Origin: Sulfurovum sp.
Lineage (GTDB): Bacteria > Campylobacterota > Campylobacteria > Campylobacterales > Sulfurovaceae
DNA: 32,490 nucleotides
Reading direction: 5' to 3'
Assembly: GCA_027082955.1 (NCBI GenBank)
Contig: JALWTA010000002.1
Span: forward strand, 1 to 32,490
The position numbers and the translations under genes are program-made. Below are positions 1 to 32,490 of this stretch, one piece after another (positions within the stretch are counted from its first letter, which is position 1; each line of letters starts with the position of its first letter). Under the pieces are notes generated by a model. That model was not told where the DNA came from and did no database searches. It worked only from the letters and a program-made list of their open reading frames with translations.

Positions 1-97
1 TATAAATTCTATTAAAAAAGTAGATTGCTCTTTGTGACGTATAAAACTACACTCTTTTTGTATTTATGAAAAAGACATTTTTAGATTTCGAAGATCA
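1..97. other. Left flanking DNA, probably host chromosome
   Basis: This AT-rich stretch lies outside the proposed phage end at 98. A short reading frame begins at 66 (MKKTFLDFEDH) and meets a stop at 102-104, just inside the proposed prophage. The same codons from TTA (Leu) to CAT (His) reappear at the right border at 32371, followed there by different codons. This would fit insertion near the 5' end of a host gene, but the frame has no clear ribosome site and is too short to identify. Confidence 0.4.
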
Positions 98-99
98 TG
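81..99 (+). repeat. 19-bp direct repeat, left border copy
   Basis: TTAGATTTCGAAGATCATG is identical to 32371-32389, in the same orientation, at the opposite edge of the prophage. If the phage starts with TG at 98 and ends with CA at 32370, the part of the repeat lying outside the phage is 17 bp. Mu-family transposition normally duplicates about 5 bp of target, so this length is unexpected. Confidence 0.8.
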
Positions 100-125
100 T
101 GTAAGTAATCACAAAAAAGGTTAAT

Positions 126-148
126 TTTTTACAGTAAAAATGAGAATT
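126..148 (+). repeat. End element, forward copy (possible transposase site)
   Basis: This element, with core TTTTTTACAGTA, matches the reverse complement of 32042-32064 at 21 of 23 positions. It therefore forms an inverted pair across the whole prophage, one copy inside each end. A related inverted copy lies at 163-183. Inverted sites inside each end are what a MuA-type transposase needs to pair the ends. The core is also close to palindromic, so an operator or terminator role cannot be excluded. Confidence 0.5.
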
Positions 149-162
149 AGGCACACAAGTTC

Positions 163-183
163 ATGTTTATACTGTAAAAATAC
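163..183 (-). repeat. End element, second left copy (inverted)
   Basis: The plus strand reads TTTATACTGTAAAAA here, and the same 15 bases occur at 32046-32060. Read on the minus strand it is a relative of the 126-148 element. Multiple transposase sites of differing orientation at one end are normal in Mu, but the function here is inferred only from position and repetition. Confidence 0.45.
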
Positions 184-186
184 CAA

Positions 187-1287
187 TTAAAGTTTCACAA
201 GATCGTTAAAAATATTATTAAGTATTTGTCCGGTTAAGCGGCTTTTTTGTAGTTTTATATCTTTGCTTTTTGGGTCTTCAAAGAAAGAAACCCTTCCATC
301 TCTGTCAAGTTTGATTTTTCCGTGAGTTTCCGTCCATATTTTGTTTTTGTGCCAGTCAGTCCCGGTGATTGCGTATAGTGCTGCTGCAGCATCCCAAACA
401 CAGTCTCTATCTTCTATTTTTGCATGAGATCCATACATCGCACTAAGAATCATTGCCATTGGACTGTCAGTCTTGTTAGTCTGATATTGTCTGTATACAT
501 CCGTAGGATAACAGCCAGCTGCTTCATCAATAAGCACAACTGGTACTGGAGAAATGTTGATTGTATTTTTCGCTGCTTTTACTGCAGCGGGATGGAATCG
601 TCCAAAAGCTCCAAAATTCATATCCCATTGATTTTTGTTAACAAGCCCACCAACAATGACAAGTTTGTCAACTTTTTCTCTTACCAATTCAATACCGTGG
701 CATCTTGTTGTTTCCTTAAAAAGTTGTTCGATGTTATAACAATTACCTGCTACCACTATAGTAACTTTCTGTTCTGCAGAAGAAAGGATCCTGCAGTACA
801 TATCTATGGCATCCTCCCGCTGATCATCCAAAAGACCGTCGTTGTCAAATTCTGACACATCCCTGCCCTGACCTCTATAAACATCTGAAAGTTTTGGATA
901 ATTGCTGAATGGAGACGGCTGCACCCTTGTATCTTTTCTTTTTGACATGCTAATTGGTATATCTTCTCTCTTATAGTAGTAGAGGATGGAAGAAACAGCC
1001 AATGAACGCTTATTGTGTGTATCTACACCGCTTAGAGCAATACCAAGAAGATGTGTTTTTCCTGCTTTCTCGAGAGCAAGTATTGAGGAAAGAGACTGTG
1101 CTATGTCGTTGTCCCCAAGCGCATCATCATCAAATATGATGTCGTGATCATGATCGTATTTAATGTTGATTTTGTTTTGTGTAATTGTCTTGTTGTTTTC
1201 GTCTATGTGCGTATTTCTTGTTCCGCAAGCTGTGACAAAAAGTACGATTATTGTTATGGCTGCAAAAAGTATGTGACTTTTTCTCAT
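187..1287 (-). CDS. Nucleoside hydrolase-like lipoprotein (phage cargo gene)
   Basis: The 366-residue product starts with a lipoprotein signal: a basic start, a hydrophobic stretch at about residues 7-18, then lipobox VTAC with Cys21 as the lipidated residue. The mature part resembles inosine-uridine nucleoside hydrolases: an Asp-rich calcium-site-like motif FDDDALGDND near residue 52, the strand VTIVVAGN, and a later VIVGGLVN...WDMNFGAF block equivalent to the family's GG...EFN region. Substrate use cannot be assigned, because these motifs diverge from characterised enzymes. It would act at the cell envelope. The ATG follows AGGAG by 7 bases and sits 9 bases after the fibre-chaperone gene, so it is probably the last gene of the late operon, although base composition is AT-richer than the head genes. 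This position is typical for lysogenic-conversion cargo; superinfection exclusion or nucleoside scavenging are guesses. Confidence 0.75.
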   Translation of the reverse strand: MRKSHILFAAITIIVLFVTACGTRNTHIDENNKTITQNKINIKYDHDHDIIFDDDALGDNDIAQSLSSILALEKAGKTHLLGIALSGVDTHNKRSLAVSSILYYYKREDIPISMSKRKDTRVQPSPFSNYPKLSDVYRGQGRDVSEFDNDGLLDDQREDAIDMYCRILSSAEQKVTIVVAGNCYNIEQLFKETTRCHGIELVREKVDKLVIVGGLVNKNQWDMNFGAFGRFHPAAVKAAKNTINISPVPVVLIDEAAGCYPTDVYRQYQTNKTDSPMAMILSAMYGSHAKIEDRDCVWDAAAALYAITGTDWHKNKIWTETHGKIKLDRDGRVSFFEDPKSKDIKLQKSRLTGQILNNIFNDLVKL

Positions 1288-1296
1288 TTTTTTCTC

Positions 1297-1875
1297 CTAT
1301 TTGAATGTTGGGTATTCCGGGTATTGTGGGTCTCGTCCAGTCGCAATTGCTGATTTCCACTCGTCAATGCAGATTTTTGTCCACTTTAACCGCAAACCGA
1401 TTTTTGATAGCTTTTCATAGTGTTCTTGAAGTTCTTCTGGCTTTGATGAAATATAATCCTGCAGCGTCATATCTCCAGCATTTATTTTCAGTACGACACC
1501 TGCTATCTCTATTGTTAAACCATCCAGCGTCACTGGGTTATCTGTCTGTGCCGTCATCGCAACTATTGCAGCCTGCGCATAGGATTGATAGCTCCTGTCT
1601 TGAGACTGTTTTTTCATTGAATAGTGTTCATAGATATACTGTTCAATACTACCAATTCTCCTCTCTACTGAAGCTTGTGTGGCAGCATCTGTATTGCCTT
1701 CAACCCACTCAGTTCCGTCCCATTTTGGTTTATAGAGAGGTTTATCATGAGAGAATTCCTCTCTTATTAAGTCTTTTGGTTTAGACTCTAAAGGGGTGCC
1801 ATTCTTATCAAGTTTTGGCTCCCATATCACATCCTCAAGATAGTATCCGTTTTTGTCAATTTTTCTATATATCAT
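1297..1875 (-). CDS. Tail fibre assembly/chaperone-like protein
   Basis: This 192-residue protein directly follows the fibre gene (1-base gap). Its N-terminus (MIYRKIDKNGYYLEDVIW) and a central proline/tryptophan segment (YKPKWDGTEWVEG near residue 50) are of the kind found in fibre-associated proteins with DUF4376-type C-termini, as is the final LRLKWTKICIDEWKSAI...PEYP region. Such proteins help fold or cap the tail fibre. The assignment rests on position and these weak motifs. No transmembrane segment or signal is visible. Confidence 0.6.
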   Translation of the reverse strand: MIYRKIDKNGYYLEDVIWEPKLDKNGTPLESKPKDLIREEFSHDKPLYKPKWDGTEWVEGNTDAATQASVERRIGSIEQYIYEHYSMKKQSQDRSYQSYAQAAIVAMTAQTDNPVTLDGLTIEIAGVVLKINAGDMTLQDYISSKPEELQEHYEKLSKIGLRLKWTKICIDEWKSAIATGRDPQYPEYPTFK

Positions 1876-1876
1876 T

Positions 1877-2929
1877 CTAATTCTCCGCTTTATAGATGAA
1901 AGTCATATACATATAATATGCGCCGATCGTTTCGCAAAATATACGACCATCCGCATACACCATCGCGCGTGGGACACCTCCTGCATTGTGTCTGTTCGAG
2001 GCAGCTGCCGCATACATTGTTGTCGATGGCCTATACCCTGCCGGTAGTGTGCATATTTGACGACTACCCCAACCGCTTGAGCCGCTTGAATTGTACGGTG
2101 CTCCAGTCACGACAACTGTCCCGTCATTAAACTTCTTGTAGTATAGATTTCCTGTCCACCCATTTATTTTTGACACATTAAACCACCCAGTATTTGAGCT
2201 TGTATATGCAACTTTTTTCCAGTTTGTCCAAAATTTGTTATATCGCGATCTGACATACATATCAGCACCATTATTATATTGTGCTGCTATCTGTCTGCAA
2301 TTATCAGTGCTTGAGTAAAACTGCGTGTTGATATGCCAGTAGTACGTACTGTCGGGGGTGTTTGCATGGTTTGAGACAATATTGATATGGTCAGGATTGC
2401 CATTTTCAACAGCGTTTGGGTCGAATGATGTCGATGTTGTACTGACGCTAAGAAGCGTGTTCATGTAAGTCATGATATCAGCTACAATATGACCGCTTTT
2501 TGTGAGATTACCTTGAACGTCAAGATCGCCTACTATCGCACCTCCATTTTTTTTAATGTATTGCTCTCCTTGTTCTACCCAGTTTACACTTGGAGGAGAA
2601 TCGGTATTTCCATCAATTTTTGATACGTAAAAAGTATTTCCAATACTTACAGATTCTCCAGTATTGATCGTTGTTGGTGTTCCTTGTGCTCCCCACTCTC
2701 CTCTGTATTGTGTCAAATCTGCCATGCTGGCAGCAGCATTGACACTTGGTAAAACACCATTCAATTCTAAGACAAAAGCATTCAATTTTTCGATAAAGGT
2801 TGTCTCTTCGACTGCATGAGTATTGAACCATGCAAGAAGTGAGTTCACCTTGTTTTGGAAGTCTGCATCATAAAGTCCTGTCGGCGGAGCCGGTGGAATT
2901 GTGATGTCTTGTTGTATTTCATTTACCAT
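1877..2929 (-). CDS. Tail fibre protein
   Basis: This 350-residue protein has a short Pro-rich N-terminus, which could attach to the tail, then an alpha-helical segment (about 25-70). A collagen-free shaft region with IGNTFYVSKIDGN and GGAIVGDLDVQGN follows, the latter typical of phage fibre repeats. Around residues 190-245 the pattern of a pyocin-knob domain is visible (INTQFYSS, YVRSRYNKFWTNWKKV). The C-terminus (GTVVVTGAP...LPAGYRPS...MVYADGRIF) is a beta-rich tip like those of Mu gpS/T4-type receptor fibres. It should determine host range. It lies between the tail-tip gene (3-base gap) and the fibre chaperone. Confidence 0.85.
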   Translation of the reverse strand: MVNEIQQDITIPPAPPTGLYDADFQNKVNSLLAWFNTHAVEETTFIEKLNAFVLELNGVLPSVNAAASMADLTQYRGEWGAQGTPTTINTGESVSIGNTFYVSKIDGNTDSPPSVNWVEQGEQYIKKNGGAIVGDLDVQGNLTKSGHIVADIMTYMNTLLSVSTTSTSFDPNAVENGNPDHINIVSNHANTPDSTYYWHINTQFYSSTDNCRQIAAQYNNGADMYVRSRYNKFWTNWKKVAYTSSNTGWFNVSKINGWTGNLYYKKFNDGTVVVTGAPYNSSGSSGWGSRQICTLPAGYRPSTTMYAAAASNRHNAGGVPRAMVYADGRIFCETIGAYYMYMTFIYKAEN

Positions 2930-2932
2930 TTT

Positions 2933-4120
2933 TTAACACTCCTTATTATTTTTTTTGTATTTGAAGCTTTCAATCTTCACCGGCATCCCCGTTTTTGATG
3001 CATTCTCAAGCGACAGTTCGTTGTCTTGCATCATGCCAAACGTGTTAAATGCCTGATGTCTGTCATCTGTCAGATAATAGGTTGCAGGTTGATTAAAAAG
3101 AAGGTCTATGACACTATCCATATAATCAATATCTTCTGTGTCAAACATCGCTTTTGCTGTATAGATCTTCACATAGTCGTCTCCTCCATCTTCGATGTCA
3201 CCCCATTTATCTCTTTTGGGTGGACGCAGGGATATTCTTCTGGATGACAATCCTCTCATTGTGCACCCTATTTCTCTTTTTTCTCCCGCGGTTACAGATG
3301 CTAATTCTGCGAGAAGAACCCCTTTATATGGTTTTGGTTCTATGGTGATACGAACCTGTTGATACTCTTTTTTTATGAGAGGAATTTGTGCGCTCCTCTC
3401 CGTATCGCAAGATACAAACCTGAGCCATGAGGCAAAATCGTGTATCATTGAGGTATCAACAAGGCTTCTCTGGTATGTTCCAATGTCGGTGCCATCGACA
3501 GTAACTCCCCCTACACTTCCAAACAGCACCCACGAGGAAAAATCACTAATACTTGCAGGATCTGTGTGTGGGACGATGTTTGTTTGAATCACATTCCCGC
3601 TTTCGTCAAGCTGCTCTACTTTTAAAAAAGTTCCATACAGTCCAAAAAGGCTTAGGGTGTCACATCGCTGAAATGCAAGTGTCATTATGAGGTGTTCCCC
3701 TATTTTTTTGGTCGCTGTTGTAAAGTAATAATCAAGGCATGCATGTGCATTGTCTTTGCCGAGCGACGACCATTTGCTGTTATGCGAGAGTGGAGATGTG
3801 TCATTGTTTATTTCCTGCGACAGATATCTGTTACCCTTAAGCACAACGGTTGCATTCTCCGGATACACCCTTCCCGCTTCATATTCAAGATATCCGATTG
3901 CCCTCCATGCCGATGTGTCTTCTACAGGATCTGATATGTTTTGGTCTATAATACTTTGAAATATGACACCAACATAGCTGCTTGGATCTCCTGATGTACG
4001 TTCCTTCACATAAACAATGCTGTTTTTTGCATATGTTGTACCAGACTGATACTCTGTATCAGATGTGACATATGCATTCGAAGAAACAAGTGTGATTGGT
4101 TTTGCAGGAATAGCTATCAT
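2933..4120 (-). CDS. Tail tip/baseplate protein with carbohydrate-binding-like repeats
   Basis: This 395-residue protein overlaps the end of the tape-measure gene by four bases (ATGA). Two similar blocks near the N-terminus (about residues 22-70 and 74-118) have the Y..G..Y..N..V......Y.......S..W pattern of chitin-binding CBM5/12-like modules, which phages use at tail tips to touch surface sugars. The rest is unassigned and ends with a Lys-rich tail. It is the only gene between tape measure and fibre, so it probably takes the place of the usual distal-tail and hub proteins. That role is inference from position. Confidence 0.6.
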   Translation of the reverse strand: MIAIPAKPITLVSSNAYVTSDTEYQSGTTYAKNSIVYVKERTSGDPSSYVGVIFQSIIDQNISDPVEDTSAWRAIGYLEYEAGRVYPENATVVLKGNRYLSQEINNDTSPLSHNSKWSSLGKDNAHACLDYYFTTATKKIGEHLIMTLAFQRCDTLSLFGLYGTFLKVEQLDESGNVIQTNIVPHTDPASISDFSSWVLFGSVGGVTVDGTDIGTYQRSLVDTSMIHDFASWLRFVSCDTERSAQIPLIKKEYQQVRITIEPKPYKGVLLAELASVTAGEKREIGCTMRGLSSRRISLRPPKRDKWGDIEDGGDDYVKIYTAKAMFDTEDIDYMDSVIDLLFNQPATYYLTDDRHQAFNTFGMMQDNELSLENASKTGMPVKIESFKYKKNNKEC

Positions 4121-7100
4121 GCAGCGCCTCCTGCTCTATATGCAGCAGCTACGGCATCACGTGCCTGCGTTTCTTGGATCTCTATTCCTTTTGCATTCTG
4201 TGCATTTGCTTCTTTTTGAAGGGCGATTAATTCTTTGAGCAACTCTATGTTTCTATCAAGTTTGTTGTCTTTTTCCGTTGATGCTTTTGTATCTGCCTGA
4301 ATTCCTGTTGCAATTCGCTGCAGACGCACAATCTCTTCTGTATTTGCAGATGTTGCAATGTTTGCGTCAAGAAGACTCATCTCATCCTGTCTTGTTACAG
4401 ACTGGACTGCTGCATTCATCCCTATTATCCCTCTAAGGTATGACTCTTTGCTGTTTGCTGTTTCCTCAAGCTTCTTTGCATAATCACTGAACAATCCAGG
4501 TACTTTCTCGTAGTTCTTGTCTGCAATTGCTGTATACAGATTATCGACGATCTTTGGGATATCTTTGCCCATTAGTTGACTAAACGTGCCATATACACTA
4601 TCCTGCATTGATGCAATAGACCTATTGAGTGCATTTCTCAGTTTAATCTCTTTGTTTATAAGGTCTATCGCCTCTTTCAGTTTCGCAACGCGCTTTTCTT
4701 CTGTTGATTTCGCATCGTTGTTTGTTTTTGCAATTGAGTCTCCGGTTGCATTGTAGTATTCTGCAAAATCACCCATATTTGACATCAGTGTCCCATAAAG
4801 CCCCTCAAGGTTTTTAAGCTCTGCTTGTGCTGCTGCAATTGCGGGAGACGTAATGCGACTGTAGTCTATTCCTCCAACAGCATCGACTGACTGCTCTACC
4901 CCATCTGCAGCAGCCTGCCCCACACCTGTTACCATTGCCTGTATTGAACTGTGTACAGACTTACCAAAGCTTACTGCCGCTTTGCCTGCTTCGTGTGAAC
5001 TTTTAATCAGCACATTGTTGTCAGATATTTGCCCCTTGATGACATTGGAGTGCGCTTGCGCTATTTTCCCTTTTGCACCAAGTTCCCCGTAGGCAACCTG
5101 AAGGCTCATTTCACCTGCGGCTACTTTGGCTGCAATTTCCGCTTTCAGTGTCGAGATTGTAGCTCTGACAGAAATAATTTTTTGCTGCGTCTCAAGAACG
5201 AGTGCCCTAAATTGAGCTTTTGAGGCTGGTAGTGCAACATTGTGTATCTGAAGAGCATATTGCAACTGCTGCTGCATAAATTGCTTTTGCTCAGCACTGC
5301 TGAAAAAGTTTTTTGTGAAAGTGTCCATGGCAGACTTGAATCTGTCAAGCCCACCGGCTGCCTGCACAAGTGTGTCGGAAGCTGCAAAGTCCTGGACAGT
5401 CTGACCAAATAGTGCAAGCTGCTGTCTGACAGTTTCGTGTTCTGTGGCAATTCTCACCAACTCCTGTACATACTCTTCTCCAGTTGTTCGCAGGCTGTTT
5501 AGTTTGCTGATATTCTCTGGAGACGCAATAGTATTGATGGCTCCTGAAACTGCGTTATTCAACTGTTCTGTAAGGGCAGCATTAATGGCTTTTGCTTGCT
5601 CTTCGGCAGACATGTCTTTTAGATTCACTTTCCCAATATTGACGACATACTCATTGATTTTCTGTTCAATTGCATTTGTGTCTAATCCAAGTGTATCGAG
5701 CGCTGTGCCGGCAGCATCGATGCCGTCTTGAAAAGCTTGACCAAGCTGCTTTGCAATGCTTTGTGGCAACTTGCTGGTCTGTTCTTTGATCTTCTCGCTA
5801 TGGAAGATACCAAGGATTGACGAACTCTTTTTGATTGCCTCATATTTATCTGCTTCCACGCCTTTCACAAAGCCTTCGACCGCCTGATCGTAAAACTTTA
5901 TTCCAGACCCTATCAGCTCCGTTGTGGATGCAGAGATGATGCCACCAAGCACAGAAGATGTCTTCGGGGCAAAGTTTGATCCTGATAGATTAAGACTGCT
6001 CGAAGATGCCAGCGCAGACAAAAGGTTTTGATCCATACTTTCGAGGTGTGCCAGCATCTGTCGGGTTGCGGTCAGTTGTGGATCCTGGTATTTTTTGAGT
6101 GTATCGATGATCTGCTGTGTACCTTTGGACTCAAATTCACCGCGCCCTGCTGCCGCCCTGATCTCTGCTTCTGAAAGTGTATTGGAGAACATCGCCCCAA
6201 TGGTTTGCACTGCGGTACCAAGACCCGGCATCAAAGTGTCCAAAGAGGAACCTATCAGGTTCCCTGTAGCGTTAGCAACAGAGAAAGGATCTCCGCTGCC
6301 AAATGCCTTGCCAAACGCGTTTATGCTGCCAAGAAGGTTGTCAAACAGATGCCCAAAAACGCTGTCGTTTTTGATGCCGAAAGCCTCCTGAAGCTTATCG
6401 GCAAGAGAATCTGTAGACTGCTTCATCTTCGCTATCTCTGCTTCGTAGATCTCTGCGAGTTCAGACTGCTTTAGATATTTGCCAAGACCGGCCAGCTCAT
6501 TCCCAAGTTTTGCGATCTGCACAAGCTCATCGCCGCCGGCATTGAAGAGTCTCGCATCCCTCAGTCTATCTTGCGCTTTTTTCAGCCCTTTTGCGTAGGC
6601 TTCCGCGGCTTTTTTGGCTTCTTTGAGTGCTTTTGTGTGCGATTTTGTATTGGATGTGAGTTTTTTTGATGAGTCCCCCGCTGCACTCATTTTGTATGCA
6701 AGTTTTTGTGTTTCAGACACTATCTCTTTTGTGTCCGATATGGTTCCTTTTGGTATAGTGATTGTTTTTATGGATGATGCAACCCCTTGAAGCTTCTCAT
6801 CAAAGGCTGCAATATCTTCAAGATCTTTATCGGCTTCTGCCCACAGTCTTGCTCCCGCATCAGAAGCTTTCATGTCTTTTTTGAGCGAACGGATCTTTGA
6901 AAGCACAAGTGTGACACCTACCCCACTCTTTTTTGCCTCTTCGAGATCTCGTTTTAATTCTTCCATTTTTGCTGCATTTTCCGCATGGCTTCCGTTCCAC
7001 CATACACGTGCTGCACCTGCAAGTTTTTTATACCCAGCATAGGCAATCCTAAACCCTGCTACAAGCTTGGATACCCATTTTATCAATGTGCCAACAGCAC

Positions 7101-7983
7101 TGATCCCTCCATTGACCATTGATACCAAAGCATCTGAAAAAACTTGCATAGCATCAGGACCGGCTGTATTCATCTGGAGGGTAACGGTTTTTAGTGCCTG
7201 TTTGATACCGGAAAAAACAGGCTGTGTAATCTGCCCTGCCATCGTGTCCCATGCCACCTGGAAGTTGCTTACTGCGACTGCCCATGTGTCTTGTGCTGCA
7301 CCCGTCTCTTTCATCTTTTCTTTAAGGTAGGCAACTTTGTCTGCAGCGGCTTTGTACTCTTCTTTGCTTACCCCAATAGCTTTCATCATCTTTCCAAAAC
7401 CGGAAGATGCTTCCCATGTGCCTGCTGCAAGATCATCGATGCCGGATTGAAGTTCTTCTGCGGTCATGCCAAAGTTTGATGCCGTATTGGAGGCAAGTTT
7501 TACTATTTCAATTTGATCTTTTACTGCCCATTTGTATTTATCCATACCTGGCTTTGCAAGAGCATAAATATCTACAAGGTCACTCATGCCCATTGCTGTT
7601 TGTGCATTGGTGGTTTTCAGTATCTGCATCATGTCGTTAACCTCTGCAGCAACAAGCTTTTTGCGCTGCATAGCATCAACTGCTTCACCAGATATCGTTA
7701 CATAACTCTTCGAGGCACTAACCATTGCTGTCAATTTTGCTCTTGAAGCATCCATCGCTTTGTTATATTCAAAGCCACTTTCAACAACAAAACCGACAGC
7801 CTTCCCTAAACCATAGATAGCTCCTGTCACACCCGCTATGGTAAGAAGACTTTTATGAAAAGAGGAAAGAGCTGTCTGTGCTTTTAAGACTTTTCTATCC
7901 AGCTTGTCAAACGAGTTGCGTACAGCAGTCACTTCACCTGTCTTCGCGTCAACAGACAGGGTGATTTTCAAGTTTTTGTTCAT
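4117..7983 (-). CDS. Tail tape measure protein
   Basis: The product has 1288 residues and is the largest in the window. It is mostly helical, rich in Ala, Lys and Gln, with long coiled-coil stretches. Hydrophobic glycine-rich segments occur near residues 50-75 and 285-315, and another around 560-600 (FGKAFGSGDPFSVANATGNLIGSSLDTLMPGLGTAVQTIG). This is the standard build of a tape measure, which sets tail length and passes into the host envelope at DNA entry. Its ATG overlaps the stop of the frameshifted chaperone product (ATGA at 7983-7980), the classic order chaperone-tape measure. By the usual ratio of about 1.5 Angstrom per residue, the tail would be near 190 nm. Confidence 0.92.
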   Translation of the reverse strand: MNKNLKITLSVDAKTGEVTAVRNSFDKLDRKVLKAQTALSSFHKSLLTIAGVTGAIYGLGKAVGFVVESGFEYNKAMDASRAKLTAMVSASKSYVTISGEAVDAMQRKKLVAAEVNDMMQILKTTNAQTAMGMSDLVDIYALAKPGMDKYKWAVKDQIEIVKLASNTASNFGMTAEELQSGIDDLAAGTWEASSGFGKMMKAIGVSKEEYKAAADKVAYLKEKMKETGAAQDTWAVAVSNFQVAWDTMAGQITQPVFSGIKQALKTVTLQMNTAGPDAMQVFSDALVSMVNGGISAVGTLIKWVSKLVAGFRIAYAGYKKLAGAARVWWNGSHAENAAKMEELKRDLEEAKKSGVGVTLVLSKIRSLKKDMKASDAGARLWAEADKDLEDIAAFDEKLQGVASSIKTITIPKGTISDTKEIVSETQKLAYKMSAAGDSSKKLTSNTKSHTKALKEAKKAAEAYAKGLKKAQDRLRDARLFNAGGDELVQIAKLGNELAGLGKYLKQSELAEIYEAEIAKMKQSTDSLADKLQEAFGIKNDSVFGHLFDNLLGSINAFGKAFGSGDPFSVANATGNLIGSSLDTLMPGLGTAVQTIGAMFSNTLSEAEIRAAAGRGEFESKGTQQIIDTLKKYQDPQLTATRQMLAHLESMDQNLLSALASSSSLNLSGSNFAPKTSSVLGGIISASTTELIGSGIKFYDQAVEGFVKGVEADKYEAIKKSSSILGIFHSEKIKEQTSKLPQSIAKQLGQAFQDGIDAAGTALDTLGLDTNAIEQKINEYVVNIGKVNLKDMSAEEQAKAINAALTEQLNNAVSGAINTIASPENISKLNSLRTTGEEYVQELVRIATEHETVRQQLALFGQTVQDFAASDTLVQAAGGLDRFKSAMDTFTKNFFSSAEQKQFMQQQLQYALQIHNVALPASKAQFRALVLETQQKIISVRATISTLKAEIAAKVAAGEMSLQVAYGELGAKGKIAQAHSNVIKGQISDNNVLIKSSHEAGKAAVSFGKSVHSSIQAMVTGVGQAAADGVEQSVDAVGGIDYSRITSPAIAAAQAELKNLEGLYGTLMSNMGDFAEYYNATGDSIAKTNNDAKSTEEKRVAKLKEAIDLINKEIKLRNALNRSIASMQDSVYGTFSQLMGKDIPKIVDNLYTAIADKNYEKVPGLFSDYAKKLEETANSKESYLRGIIGMNAAVQSVTRQDEMSLLDANIATSANTEEIVRLQRIATGIQADTKASTEKDNKLDRNIELLKELIALQKEANAQNAKGIEIQETQARDAVAAAYRAGGAA

Positions 7984-26091: not shown

Positions 26092-26659
26092 GTTCACTCC
26101 TTTCCAACGCATACACAGGCACACCGCCCTCTTTCCCTGTCTCAATGACGCGCCCCTCCTGCTGCATCTTCATCAGCACAAAGGCAAAACGCCCGGGCGA
26201 TATCCCCGATCGCTCATTGAGTACAAGCAGTGTCAACCCCTCCGGCTCTGACGCAAGCAGCTGCTCTATGCGCCCCATGTCATACGCCACAGGATCGATC
26301 TTGCGCATTGGGCTTGGTTTGGTCACTGTCACGGGAAGCTTCATGGCGCCGTCTTTAAGTTGCAGCTTCATCTCATTGCGGTCAAAGAGCCTCCGCTGCT
26401 TCTCTATCCACACAGGGCACAAAATGCCGGTGTTCTTCACCAGACCGTAGCTTCGCTCTGTAAACCGGCGCGGTACCTTTCCTCCGATCTTCCGCGCACG
26501 GATGTACCCCGCACGCTCCAACTGCCCGAAGTACTTTCTCAGACTCTCTGTCCCCATATCTGTCAGCGGCAGCAGGTCTTCTACTTTGAAAATGCGGTTG
26601 CGACGCATATACTCCCACACATACTGCCGCTCACTCTTTTTGCGCTTAAATCGATTCAT
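26081..26659 (-). CDS. Winged-helix DNA-binding protein
   Basis: This 192-residue protein has an N-terminal winged helix (RQYVWEYMRRNRIFKVEDLL, then TDMGTESLRKYFGQLERAGY and IRARKIGGKVPRRF). A second one lies near the C-terminus (RIEQLLASEPEGLTLLVLNE ... GRFAFVLMKMQQEGRVIETG). It overlaps the end of muB. It may be an accessory early regulator. Confidence 0.7.
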   Translation of the reverse strand: MNRFKRKKSERQYVWEYMRRNRIFKVEDLLPLTDMGTESLRKYFGQLERAGYIRARKIGGKVPRRFTERSYGLVKNTGILCPVWIEKQRRLFDRNEMKLQLKDGAMKLPVTVTKPSPMRKIDPVAYDMGRIEQLLASEPEGLTLLVLNERSGISPGRFAFVLMKMQQEGRVIETGKEGGVPVYALERSEHAG

Positions 26660-27386
26660 GCCGTTTCTTCTCCACGTTGCTGAGCTTGTAGGTCTTCATG
26701 TCCACCTCATAGATGCCGTTTGTCTCACACCAAAGCTCCAGCTGCTTGAGCAGCACTTTTATCGCTCTGATACTTTTGAATTTTCCGTGCAGGTACGTCC
26801 GCAGATCCTCTTTGATCACGATCGGCTCAAACCGATCCCCCTCCCCGATACCGCACAGGTTGATGAACTGGTCTATGTCGTCTTTGGGCGTATCGGTAAA
26901 GTATGTCTTTTTCACGATCCTGTCATAAAAGTGCCTGTGCCGCTGCAGCCGTGCGTCACACTGCCCCATGCCCACAAGCAGCAGCGGTACCTGTGCCTGG
27001 TCGTGCAGATCGCGAAAACTCTCCAGTATCCCTATCTTGCCTCCTACCAGTGCCCTGTCTATCTCATCGACGATGAGTGGCCGCGGGTTTTCTATGAGAC
27101 TCTCGATGATCCGCTGCACCACCTCCGCTGTTGACCCTTTGGTGTGCACGCCCAGTGCCTCCGCCACCGCTGTCATCGCAGACGCGGGCGTCCAGCTCTC
27201 CAGCACACGCACCAAGACCCCGTCAAACTCTTTGGTCAGCCGCTCCAGTGCCGTGGTTTTGCCCACACCGGGGTTCCCATACCCAAGACCGATGCGCTCC
27301 GGGTTCCCCTCCATGTCCACCAGGGTTGACAACAGCTCGAACATTGCTGTATAATTCTTCGTCTTCACAAACGCACGTTTACTCAT
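26646..27386 (-). CDS. MuB-like transposition target-selector ATPase
   Basis: This 246-residue AAA+ ATPase has Walker A GNPGVGKT (37-44), Walker B PLIVDEID (103-110), sensor-1-like PLLLVGMG and an arginine-rich HRHFYDRIVKK. It is shorter than Mu B (312) and lacks the long N-terminal part. It should bind target DNA as filaments and stimulate the transposase. It follows muA after a 149-base gap with two hairpins. Confidence 0.9.
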   Translation of the reverse strand: MSKRAFVKTKNYTAMFELLSTLVDMEGNPERIGLGYGNPGVGKTTALERLTKEFDGVLVRVLESWTPASAMTAVAEALGVHTKGSTAEVVQRIIESLIENPRPLIVDEIDRALVGGKIGILESFRDLHDQAQVPLLLVGMGQCDARLQRHRHFYDRIVKKTYFTDTPKDDIDQFINLCGIGEGDRFEPIVIKEDLRTYLHGKFKSIRAIKVLLKQLELWCETNGIYEVDMKTYKLSNVEKKRHESI

Positions 27387-27464: not shown

Positions 27465-27536
27465 TCACAAATCACTCGCGATCATATATATGGCGATGAT
27501 TAAAAACAGATATGCTATATCTTCAATATGCTCCAT
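27465..27536 (-). CDS. Possible 23-residue membrane peptide after muA
   Basis: The ATG at 27536 overlaps the muA stop (TGATG) and gives MEHIEDIAYLFLIIAIYMIA followed by three residues, a single hydrophobic helix. It has no ribosome site of its own but could be translated by coupling. Its shortness means it may not be real. Confidence 0.3.
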   Translation of the reverse strand: MEHIEDIAYLFLIIAIYMIASDL

Positions 27537-29548
27537 CACCCAGCCTTTCTCTTCTCATACTCCTCGACAGCCATCTGCCAAAGCCCCTCATGTTTTTCTG
27601 CCAGCCGCTCTGTGCTCTCATCGACCATATCGTTCTCCAGATCCCACGCAAACCGCTCGCTCACGCTACCAAAGATCGGTCTGCCGTTGATGGTCACACT
27701 CTCTTTGCTCTCGTCTGTAACCTCCTGCTGCTCTTCTGGCTCCAGTGCGCTCTCTTCGGCAAGCGATGAGGCGACATTGCCAATGAGCTCGCTCTTCATC
27801 TCCACGCCGACGGTCAGCTCCTCCGCCTGTGTCGCCACATCTTCCACCAGCAGCCGGTACCGCTCAGGTGCCTCTCTGCGCAGTTCGTTGAGTTCTCTGA
27901 TGATCTTCTCGCTCTTTTTGTCAAAGAACCGGCTCGCCATGTACTCCGCCCTGCTCTTGCCGATGTGTTCCGCACTCTCGGCACGGCACAGGAAGTTCAT
28001 CTCAAGGTCATAGATGTACAGATACCCAAGTTCATCATCACTCAGCATCCACACACTCTCTCCAACCCTGTCATAAAAGAGGTCATGCCAGTAGCTGATC
28101 TTCTTCCACGTCACACCCTTTTTGGTGATCCGCTTCTTCTCACTCAGCCCTACCAGCACATCAAGCACACGCGTATCGCTGATGGTACGCACCGGAATGG
28201 CACACTCGCTCCACCGCTCTATCGGCGTCTGACGTATGCCTCTGTGGAACTTCTGCTCATACCGCTTGATCCACCGGTCTATGTACAGCTCCAGCTCATC
28301 GCGCGTCAGCGTCGTTGGGATGTACAGGTCAAGCTCTTTCTGCTTGCGTGCCAGCTTCTTCGCTGCTGCGTTGCCCACTCTGAGCACCTCTTTGGCACGT
28401 TTCCGTGCCTCCAGCTTCTTCTCGTAGGTCGCACGGTCATCGATGCGTTTTCGCTCTTCGACATCATGCCCCACATACCCGGGCAGCTCCTCGAACAGAT
28501 CCCGCGTCAGCGTCCCGAAAAACCGCTCTATGTGCGGCTTTTGCCATCCGCTGTAGGGTGCGGTGAACTGCTGCTCTATCTTCAGACGCGCACAGGTGTA
28601 CTCAAACGCAAGGCTCTTGTACTCCCGCCCGTTGTCCAGCCGCACCTTCTCTGGCACGCCAAGCTTCTGTATCCCTTTTTTGAACACTTTGGCAAGCGCT
28701 GAACTGTTCGCTGTCGGTGTCACCACCACGATCACCCGCCGGCTGTACACATCTATGGCAGCACTCAGCTGGTACCGCACCCCGTCTGCACACATCACAT
28801 CCGCAGGCGTACCGTCCATCTCCCAGATGGCGTTGTTGTACGGTGCGCTCTCACTGGCGCTCCCCGGTGCCGGACGCAGTTTGTTGTTCGCCTCCTGCGG
28901 ACTGCGTGCCAGCGTGGTTTCGAGGATGTTCTCCTCCTTGTACCGCTTGATCATCCGCGACACCGTCGCATAGCTCAGGCACCCTTTGCCAAACTCCTCC
29001 TCAAGGTACATGTGTATCTTCGTCAGACTTCTGTCAGGGTTCTCCAGAAACAGCCGCGCCACAAACGCATACTGCTCATCCGTATAGCTGCGGTTGCTGC
29101 TGTTCTTGCCCCGCAGATCAAGCAGATGCTCCAGCGCCACCTCGCCGTTCTCTTCACACTTTCTTACGATGTCAAGCCAGCGAAACAGCTTCCCTTTGCT
29201 CGGCTTGATCTCCCGGTACTTGTACTCCACCCGCTCCAAAAACTTCTTCCAGCTCTCGCCGCTTGGACGGTTGCGGTACAGCCGCACCAGTGCCAGCCGC
29301 TTGCTTGCAAGACGCTGCTGCTCCTCACTTGCACGCCGCCATGCCGCGCTCAGTTCCGTATCGCTGGTATCGACCACCTCGGCAAAGATCTCTTCGTACT
29401 GATAGTTCCCAGAGATCTTCTCAAACTTGAAATAGCGATCATTCAACTTGATGCTGTCTCTTCCTGCTTCCGTAGCCTCTTTTGTCTTTCTTCTTATCTG
29501 CTTATAGTTTATGTTTAGGATTGTTGCCAGATCATTAGTTGTTATCAT
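27536..29548 (-). CDS. MuA-like DDE transposase
   Basis: This 670-residue protein is close in size to Mu A (663). It has an N-terminal helix-turn-helix (TTNDLATILNINYKQIRRKT), middle DNA-binding helices, and a catalytic rve-type domain with Asp245 (IWEMDGTP), Asp305 (VRLDNG) and Glu341 (PHIERFFG). A 35-residue spacing between the second Asp and Glu gives DD35E, shorter than the 55 of Mu A and like TnsB-type enzymes. The C-terminal basic part would carry the MuB contact. It cuts and joins phage ends for integration and replication. The start overlaps the Ner-like gene by 14 bases. Confidence 0.95.
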   Translation of the reverse strand: MITTNDLATILNINYKQIRRKTKEATEAGRDSIKLNDRYFKFEKISGNYQYEEIFAEVVDTSDTELSAAWRRASEEQQRLASKRLALVRLYRNRPSGESWKKFLERVEYKYREIKPSKGKLFRWLDIVRKCEENGEVALEHLLDLRGKNSSNRSYTDEQYAFVARLFLENPDRSLTKIHMYLEEEFGKGCLSYATVSRMIKRYKEENILETTLARSPQEANNKLRPAPGSASESAPYNNAIWEMDGTPADVMCADGVRYQLSAAIDVYSRRVIVVVTPTANSSALAKVFKKGIQKLGVPEKVRLDNGREYKSLAFEYTCARLKIEQQFTAPYSGWQKPHIERFFGTLTRDLFEELPGYVGHDVEERKRIDDRATYEKKLEARKRAKEVLRVGNAAAKKLARKQKELDLYIPTTLTRDELELYIDRWIKRYEQKFHRGIRQTPIERWSECAIPVRTISDTRVLDVLVGLSEKKRITKKGVTWKKISYWHDLFYDRVGESVWMLSDDELGYLYIYDLEMNFLCRAESAEHIGKSRAEYMASRFFDKKSEKIIRELNELRREAPERYRLLVEDVATQAEELTVGVEMKSELIGNVASSLAEESALEPEEQQEVTDESKESVTINGRPIFGSVSERFAWDLENDMVDESTERLAEKHEGLWQMAVEEYEKRKAG

Positions 29549-31409: not shown

Positions 31410-32033
31410 ATGGAGAATATAGGTGACAGAATATGTCGTGTCAGGAGAGATAGAAAGCTTTCACAGTCCGATATAGCCGATGCTTTAGGTATATCGACAC
31501 GTACTTATCAACGTTTTGAAAAAAATCCAGAGGAACTTGATAGAATACGTCAAGTGGCATCATTATTGGATGTTTCTTATGATTGGTTGCTTACAGGAAA
31601 AGACAACAATGATATAGCACCTATCATAGATAATTCGTTGTCTGTGTCTCTTTACAGAGGAGGAGCTGGGGAAGGAATATATAATTTTGAAAGCAGTAAA
31701 TACCTTCTTTCTCTTAATACTGATATATTCCCAGAGCTAAAAGGAAAACCAATTACTGCTATAGAGGTTGTTGGTGACTCTATGGAGCCTATTTTGAGAA
31801 AGGGGGACTATATCCTTGTTACGCCACAGGACAGAGAGCGTCGTACCGAGGATGGTATTTATGCTATACGCCTTGATGGTGCCATCAAGATCAAGGCACT
31901 GCAGTTCCAGCTTGATGGTACAATTAAGATTATCTCATATAACCACCATTACTCATCAGAGATCTATGATCCGGCTGTCTCTCAGGTCGACTTCGAGATC
32001 CTTGGAAAACACTGTCTTACTATTGCAAGATAA
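31410..32033 (+). CDS. Phage repressor, HTH plus S24 (LexA-like) domain
   Basis: This 207-residue protein has an N-terminal HTH (about 5-60: RICRVRRDRKLSQSDIADAL). It also has a C-terminal S24 autoprotease domain with Ser124 in VGDSMEP and a candidate Lys at 160 or 162 (GAIKIK), plus an Ala-Gly (86-87) cleavage candidate in RGGAGEG. This architecture implies RecA-triggered cleavage and SOS induction, unlike the classic Mu c repressor, which lacks the protease. Three GACA-N3-TAYGTC sites flank or overlap its start. It is transcribed away from the lytic genes. Confidence 0.9.
   Translation: MENIGDRICRVRRDRKLSQSDIADALGISTRTYQRFEKNPEELDRIRQVASLLDVSYDWLLTGKDNNDIAPIIDNSLSVSLYRGGAGEGIYNFESSKYLLSLNTDIFPELKGKPITAIEVVGDSMEPILRKGDYILVTPQDRERRTEDGIYAIRLDGAIKIKALQFQLDGTIKIISYNHHYSSEIYDPAVSQVDFEILGKHCLTIAR
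31425..31437. promoter_or_regulatory. Repressor operator O3, inside the repressor gene
   Basis: GACAGAATATGTC lies 42 bases from O2 (four helical turns), within codons 6-10 of the repressor. It matches O1 and O2 and may serve negative autoregulation. Confidence 0.55.
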
Positions 32034-32370
32034 TACGATTCACATTTATACTGTAAAAAATCGTGTCCCGAGGTATGTCCTTAGCTTCACGGCGTTTCAC
32101 ACGGCAAACCACTCACAAACCACGCTCTCACCGACAAAAACACCGCATCCAACCCAAAAACAGTGATGCACCGCCTCGTTTCATCTGCACTATCCCTCAC
32201 AACCGCCCAAAAACCCGACAAACAACCCCAAAAATGAACCAGTTCAAAAAAGTTCAATGAAACATAAACTGCTTCATCACCTTTTTAAAACCATTTTCAC
32301 CCCACAAACCCCCACCACACCGCAAACCACACGAAACACCCCCCATTCACTTTTTAACTGATCCCCCACA
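32034..32370. other. Prophage left end (phage orientation), non-coding
   Basis: No credible gene is seen in this 337-base stretch. The plus strand is strongly C/A-rich and G-poor, unlike the genes. It contains the end element at 32042-32064, a GTTTCAC site at 32094-32100 and ends ATCCCCCACA, the mirror of TGTG at 98. Transposase-binding sites are expected here. Confidence 0.5.
32042..32064 (-). repeat. End element, right copy (inverted)
   Basis: The reverse complement of this segment matches 126-148 at 21 of 23 positions. It begins nine bases after the repressor stop. If it is a transposase site it lies about 306 bases inside the proposed end at 32370, against about 28 inside the other end. 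Confidence 0.5.
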
Positions 32371-32389
32371 TTAGATTTCGAAGATCATG
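32371..32389 (+). repeat. 19-bp direct repeat, right border copy
   Basis: This copy is identical to 81-99. It directly follows the CACA proposed as phage terminus and runs into the 14-bp tandem array. Together with the left copy it marks the prophage borders. Confidence 0.8.
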
Positions 32390-32490
32390 AAACTCCAAAG
32401 ATGAAACTCCAAAGATGAAACTCCAAAGATGAAACTCCAAAGATGAAACTCCAAAGATGAAACTCCAAAGATGAAACTCCAAAGATGAAA
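32387..32490 (+). repeat. 14-bp tandem repeat array running off the window
   Basis: ATGAAACTCCAAAG is present in seven perfect consecutive copies (32387-32484) plus six bases of an eighth. The unit is not a multiple of three and any frame through it meets TGA, so it cannot be part of a long coding sequence in this copy number. It is either a host minisatellite or an assembly end effect. Confidence 0.9.

Follow-up and report, generated by a model that had tools for sequence, protein, structure and literature searches.

Some phage-encoded lipoproteins, such as Llp of bacteriophage T5, act in exclusion. In nucleoside hydrolases (NHs), the calcium ligands given in the available part of one account (PMC8910321) are two Asp residues of a DxDxxxDD fingerprint, an Asp located about 230 residues further on and a backbone oxygen; the same part describes a Trp preceding the last calcium Asp as the group II state. 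In HopQ1, residue D108 marks the last Asp of the DD pair as a calcium position (accessible portion of PMC11685791). Nucleoside hydrolases are not unheard of in phages, because one has been annotated in an Acinetobacter phage (PMC9228384, in the part available).

Here we analyzed a 32,490-bp stretch of Sulfurovum DNA (the window), corresponding to the entire contig C2 of a 2.1-Mb draft genome in 48 contigs. The gene under study (187..1287, minus strand), which orthologues and dN/dS support as genuine, encodes P0001, a 366-aa lipoprotein to which an NH fold was assigned from a structural model. Hardly any NH-fold proteins turned up in the phage records examined, and they are uncommon in this bacterial order; P0001 appears to be maintained by selection in the three phages that carry it, and its clade lacks one of the metal ligands of the fold. 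The protein would thereby serve as a compact, testable example of how the role of an enzyme fold shifts when its gene passes from a chromosome into a phage, and would bring an envelope function to the repertoire of Campylobacterota phages. A literature search, with subscription journals mostly outside its scope, returned no report of this protein.

The carrier phage and its right end

The window carries a Mu-like Sulfurovum prophage (100-32370), which encodes MuA- and MuB-like proteins, GemA and a Mu F-like head protein and presents TG...CA ends. The MuA-like DDE transposase (27536..29548; phrog_310, 5e-74; rve and Mu-transpos_C), the MuB-like AAA ATPase (26646..27386; phrog_296, 2.9e-32; AAA_22 and TniB) and the tape measure protein (4117..7983; phrog_7740, 2.2e-14) are all encoded on the minus strand, together with DUF3164, an XkdF-type protease and tail genes. 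A CI-like S24 repressor identified in profile searches (31410..32033, plus strand) lies on the strand opposite to the other phage genes. The gene encoding P0001 is preceded, in order, by the tape measure, tail, fibre and small fibre-associated genes. The 350-aa tail fibre-like protein (1877..2929, minus strand) matches phrog_3971 (1.4e-9), a family of unknown function, and its putative fibre role was assigned by eye and from position. Position also suggests that the following 192-aa protein (1297..1875, minus strand), which returned no Pfam family at E 1, is probably fibre-associated or involved in fibre assembly. No further gene separates that of P0001 from the right end of the phage, at base 100. 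The original prediction had placed it at the extreme right end of a transposable phage, after the fibre genes, and the Mu-like proteins, the phage ends and an empty insertion site in the same assembly agree with that setting.

The right end (100..186, minus strand) extends past the stop codon and contains inverted TTTACAGTA / TACTGTAAA blocks, which are probable transposase sites, and the terminus GTGATTACTTACA. The 87 bp separating the stop codon of P0001 from the phage end align in four phages: those of the window, of the Sulfurovum genomes G032 and G034, and of an IMG/VR contig. The right terminus likewise aligns in all four, and the left terminus in two; the right and left ends of the phage read TGTAAGTAATC and TGTGGGGGATCAGTT, respectively. 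An unoccupied host site is present on contig C16, and positions 1-99 and 32371 onward of the window match its two sides. The coexistence of the occupied (C2) and empty (C16) sites in one assembly hence indicates that the prophage is polymorphic in the population or excises. A direct repeat of 19 bp, TTAGATTTCGAAGATCATG, occupies the right (81..99) and, by sequence comparison, the left (32371..32389) junctions and is present as a single copy in C16; its core has three matches in the genome, one in C16 and two at the C2 junctions. The duplication relative to the empty site is therefore 19 bp, compared with the 5-6 bp target duplications of Mu and B3 (accessible part of PMC8705779). No flanking direct repeat was visible by eye around the G034 prophage.

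Several additional observations concern the insertion region. In three Sulfurovum species (window, G032 and G034), one intergenic region harbours related Mu-like prophages, all in the same orientation (window 1-100 and 32370-32490; L003 2640-2740; L048 3990-4082; L049 15933-16985). Their right ends lie 25-110 bp away from a host motif that is conserved and begins TTAACATAATATAAATTCTAT; insertion by Mu-like phages is usually close to random. A TetR-type regulator gene lies downstream of this region where both flanks are known (window and G034), and a tandem 14-bp repeat, ATGAAACTCCAAAG, adjoins the insertion site both when occupied and when empty (window 32387-32490; L018 1516-1635). The leftmost 290 bp of the phage (32080-32370), to which no gene was assigned, are markedly C-rich on the plus strand, with G-rich runs on the phage strand. 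The phage on the IMG/VR contig (L001) is inserted elsewhere. Beyond its right end (L001 6101-8890) lie a tyrosine recombinase and, as named by eye, a filamentous-phage coat-like protein and the initial part of a Zot-like gene, which raises the possibility that this phage inserted next to, or into, an inovirus-like element. Since the flanking recombinase is 77% identical to one in a genome of the same genus (G108), the host of the IMG/VR phage is probably also Sulfurovum.

Lipoprotein features, predicted fold and metal site

The first 21 residues of P0001 (1225..1287, minus strand) comprise a signal peptide ending in a lipobox identified by eye at residues 18-21 (VTA-C21). A lipobox is also present in both phage orthologues (SAC) and in a chromosomal homolog from genome G194 (SGC), and the conservation of its Cys in all three is in keeping with the proposed lipidation of the protein. 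On sequence reading, P0001 hence combines the export signal and lipobox found in exclusion lipoproteins. A variable linker (residues 22-48; 1144..1224, minus strand) connects the signal peptide to the NH-fold domain (residues ~49-366); dN among the phage copies is 0.71-0.88 over the first 40 codons, for which dS is not estimable, versus 0.08-0.14 in the domain. The gene has its own putative ribosome site, as originally noted: an AGGAG (1294..1298, minus strand) that overlaps the preceding stop codon, 6 nt ahead of the ATG. The AT-richer composition also attributed to the gene is real (38.7% GC) but not distinctive, because third-position GC descends along the phage, with 70% in MuA, 36-37% in the adjacent fibre genes and 32% in the lipoprotein gene. 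Over 187-29548 this composition forms a gradient with no single foreign block, and atypical GC was rejected on these grounds as a sign of recent capture.

The gene starts 3-9 nt past the preceding small gene in three phages (9 nt in the window), the 100 bp upstream of it are dissimilar among these phages by eye, and a simple sigma-70 scan of positions 1-3000 returned promoter-like sites at chance level (9 found versus 8.8 expected), with none identified as a promoter for P0001. These features suggest late co-transcription with the tail genes, although read-through from other promoters may also occur; they weaken the original suggestion of a lysogenic-conversion gene and lend no support to a separate expression unit. 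Rfam searches on 1-3000 yielded no match, and PADLOC returned a single 12.6-bit match at chance level.

Sequence searches detected the domain faintly. The match to the Pfam IU_nuc_hydro family (PF01156; E 1.1e-6) scored 28.9 bits, below the curated cut-off of 34.2; PDB sequence searches with P0001 or A1 alone returned no matches, and those with the exported NH-like protein L026 only chance ones. An AlphaFold model of residues 40-366, computed from a nine-sequence alignment, reached a pLDDT of 77 and a pTM of 0.84, with model residues 84-109 below 50. Each of the 50 PDB rows listed by Foldseek was a nucleoside or riboside hydrolase (best E 6.3e-14), and the best VIA-align match was Trypanosoma brucei IAG-NH (4i73_C; Z 28.7, rmsd 2.9 over 288 aligned residues), with rows within 1 of this Z considered tied. 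In BFVD, matches at E <= 0.001 comprised six proteins, all from giant viruses. The predicted structure, which we regard as the decisive evidence on the fold, places P0001 in the NH superfamily over its whole domain; this upholds the nucleoside-hydrolase-like label originally given to it.

The alignments allowed most of the NH pocket to be located in P0001 (all on the minus strand). The metal-motif stretch reads D53-D54-D55-A-L-G-D59-N-D61-I62 (1102..1131), G181-N-C-Y-N185 (733..747) corresponds to the GxxTN segment that supplies the backbone calcium ligand, D222-M-N224 (616..624) is the counterpart of E-x-N, which we take to be the ribose-binding position, and W298-D299 (391..396) aligns with the (His/Trp)-Asp pair containing the last calcium Asp. 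W298-D299 lies 244 residues after D55, so that the downstream calcium Asp and the aromatic residue before it are both in place. Residues D53, D55, D61, N185, D222, N224, W298 and D299 are invariant in the four closest proteins (4/4), down to 49% identity, as is D59.

The exception lies in the DD pair. A nine-sequence profile aligned to PDB 8qnd sets DtDmltDvdd against DTDP--GIDD, indicating a two-residue insertion followed by DD, where P0001 has D61-I62. We take this calcium-position residue to correspond to the last Asp of the HopQ1 DxxxDxDD motif. The position is occupied by Ile in P0001, P0002, P0003 and the G194 protein, by Trp in those of G474 and G492 (in which the residue ahead of the last Asp is not Trp either), and by Asp in every exported outgroup protein (seven) and every IUNH of the order (four) that was aligned. 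In place of DxDxxxDD, all four close members hence present the D53xD55xxxD59xD61-I62 pattern ending in Ile. D59 might serve as a substitute ligand, in which case the calcium site would be normal. Because the calcium fingerprint was tested and found broken, the protein is not classified here as a nucleoside hydrolase: comparison with the IUNH active-site set supports most pocket positions, W298-D299 included, but not the second Asp of DD, and the plain name of nucleoside hydrolase goes beyond the evidence. Of the options first put forward, a repurposed fold is the one that gains most. In its predicted fold and at most pocket positions P0001 resembles an NH, and it probably recognizes a riboside as NHs do.

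Relatives in phages and chromosomes

The closest orthologues of P0001 are encoded by two other phages, on contig C9 of G032 (82% identical) and on the 24-kb IMG/VR contig (72%). In all three phages the lipoprotein gene follows the fibre gene and a small gene, and the right end comes next. The original prediction regarded such a protein as unusual in a phage, and it proved rare: tblastn with P0001 matched 0/50,697 phage records and 0/72,556 plasmid records, an ordinary IUNH query matched 11/50,697 phage records, and the exported NH-like protein L026 matched none of the phage records. IMG/VR scans with A1 and A3 recovered only the 24-kb contig already known, and neither MuA nor the 395-aa tail protein gave any match there. 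Synteny with the more distant G034 phage extends over most of that phage (MuA 65%), in which no NH gene is present and the right end holds other small genes. In the G032 phage, the fibre matches that of the window over its first 73 residues only, and the gene after it has no match in its window counterpart. The NH-fold domain presents NG86 dN/dS values of 0.122 (window-G032), 0.053 (window-IMG/VR) and 0.064 (G032-IMG/VR), the last two with near-saturated dS (2.0-2.7); by this measure, the domain is under strong purifying selection in the three phages.

Chromosomal relatives are few. A profile of the three phage proteins matched 4/398 genomes of the order, two of them through the signal peptide or a short stretch only (G134 and G357); these rows were dropped, as were G134 and G530 in a later search. 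The G134 and G530 matches cover ~55 residues at the signal peptide, and that of G357 (residues 6-150) falls in a 367-aa protein resembling, by eye, an efflux-type periplasmic adaptor. Within the family, a search of 175 genomes identified seven carriers (the window, G032, G039, G194, G474, G492 and G516). The G194 gene, from another genus of the same family, encodes a chromosomal lipoprotein 49% identical to P0001 with the same NDI change; it stands alone beside an OmpA-like and a phosphate-permease-like gene (named by eye), and no phage genes were seen on its 4-kb contig. The NH-domain proteins of G039 (L027/L004; 998 aa, with repeated beta-rich modules by eye) and G516 (L065; 516 aa) are longer and keep DD. 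Ordinary PF01156 genes were found in 4/248 genomes of the order, all of one genus.

Phylogenetic analysis of 17 proteins separated the six that lack the second Asp, three from phages and three chromosomal, from the rest by a 99/99 branch, and placed the G194 protein beside the three phage proteins (99/99). The midpoint root falls beside the four order IUNHs, and G474 and G492 have long branches. Among the genomes searched, this clade occurs only in the window's own family, and none of its chromosomal members (L056, L062, L063; 0/3) is detected by Pfam at E 0.01. The simplest and most likely reading is that the phage captured the gene from a chromosome of the host family; the reverse flow, from phage to chromosome, is possible, the chromosomal members being only three, one at 49% identity and two distant.

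Possible roles and comparison with known systems

We propose that this gene was acquired by a Sulfurovum Mu-like phage from a chromosome within the same bacterial family and forms cargo at the phage right end. Its product would be a lipoprotein facing the periplasm on a variable linker, with outer-membrane sorting suggested by the +2 residue, and would carry a complete NH-fold domain. Produced late through read-through of the tail operon, it would handle a ribose-containing ligand in the periplasm by means of its remodelled metal site, either binding the ligand or hydrolyzing it with atypical metal use. For this combination of captured cargo lipoprotein and remodelled riboside binding or hydrolysis, we consider the chances to be about even. 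A related and tentative proposal, which we hold to be on the unlikely side, is that the family-restricted exported NH-fold clade, on losing the calcium-anchoring Asp, came to act in the periplasm as a sensor of, or sink for, a ribose-containing molecule (a nucleoside, ADP-ribose or a cyclic nucleotide being candidates), which the phage would intercept in the envelope late in infection by means of its captured copy.

The metal site bears directly on whether P0001 could instead be a fully active periplasmic nucleoside hydrolase with which lysogens scavenge external nucleosides, as a form of lysogenic conversion. The complete predicted fold, the group II-like Trp-Asp and the retention of most pocket residues are compatible with this, and the family search returned no PF01156 match for the genome to which the window belongs (this search also misses P0001). 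Altered fingerprints can moreover work, as in the S. solfataricus CU-NH, which has Glu and binds sodium (PMC8910321, part available). However, the second Asp of the calcium pair is missing in 6/6 clade members, a HopQ1 mutant of that Asp and its neighbour showed altered oligomeric state and stability (accessible part of PMC11685791), and the sigma-70 scan of 1-3000 revealed no lysogen promoter. A canonical NH identity was thus considered and is weakened by I62, making full activity a doubtful proposition. An exclusion or anti-readsorption lipoprotein, in which the NH fold would serve as a surface hiding the receptor from the phage's own fibre, would fit with the adjacency of the lipoprotein and fibre genes and with the action of Ltp-type phage lipoproteins (PMC3952083, part available). 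The comparison with G032 makes a function tied to one fibre's receptor less likely, because the fibre past residue 73 and the next gene are wholly different there while the lipoprotein remains 82% identical; the ligand pocket among the invariant residues and the existence of clade members outside phages also count against exclusion, a reading that we regard as improbable.

Evidence on conservation and on the phage ends addresses two further alternatives. The absence of the gene from the related G034 phage, with other small genes at its right end, would be expected of a passenger captured by chance and unselected in the phage, but dN/dS values of 0.05-0.12 and an intact gene in 3/3 phages render this very improbable. 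A host gene lying beside the phage, or an assembly error, might be suspected in a window that is one draft contig ending 186 bp from the gene. Against this, the phage end at base 100 is conserved in four phages and, instead of falling to the right of 1287, leaves the stop codon 87 bp inside, the host flank identical to C16 starts only at base 99, and the same gene order occurs on two other contigs. The conserved end and the empty site in C16 led us to reject this reading, whose likelihood we consider negligible.

Taken as a remodelled riboside-handling lipoprotein, P0001 can be set against four groups of proteins. Like Ltp of TP-J34 and Llp of T5, both superinfection-exclusion lipoproteins, it is a phage-encoded lipoprotein, but their fold is presumably unrelated to its own. 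With the XopQ/HopQ1-like proteins of plant pathogens (4p5f) it shares the predicted NH fold (Z 25.8) and a shifted DxxxDxD-type calcium motif (available part of PMC11685791); unlike them, it reads D55xxxD59xD61-I62, with Ile for the last Asp of DxxxDxDD, scores 13.5 bits against an NCBIfam XopQ cut-off of 500, and shows no type III context that could be seen around it. Exported NH-like proteins from Bacteroidales, Pirellulales and Kiritimatiellae (L024-L026, L028, L029) and from Sulfurovum (L027), most of them with an export signal by eye, are 22-29% identical to mature P0001 and share its DTDMxTDxDD-type insertion, but keep the acidic pair (DD or ED) that P0001 lacks. The group I and II NHs (PF01156; T. 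brucei IAG-NH 4i73, E. coli RihA 3g5i) share the predicted fold of the whole domain (Z 27-29), as well as the DxD start, the GxxxN, the x-N and the Trp-Asp; P0001 differs from them in the two-residue insertion in the fingerprint, the Ile in place of the second Asp of DD, its lipoprotein nature and a score below the Pfam cut-off.
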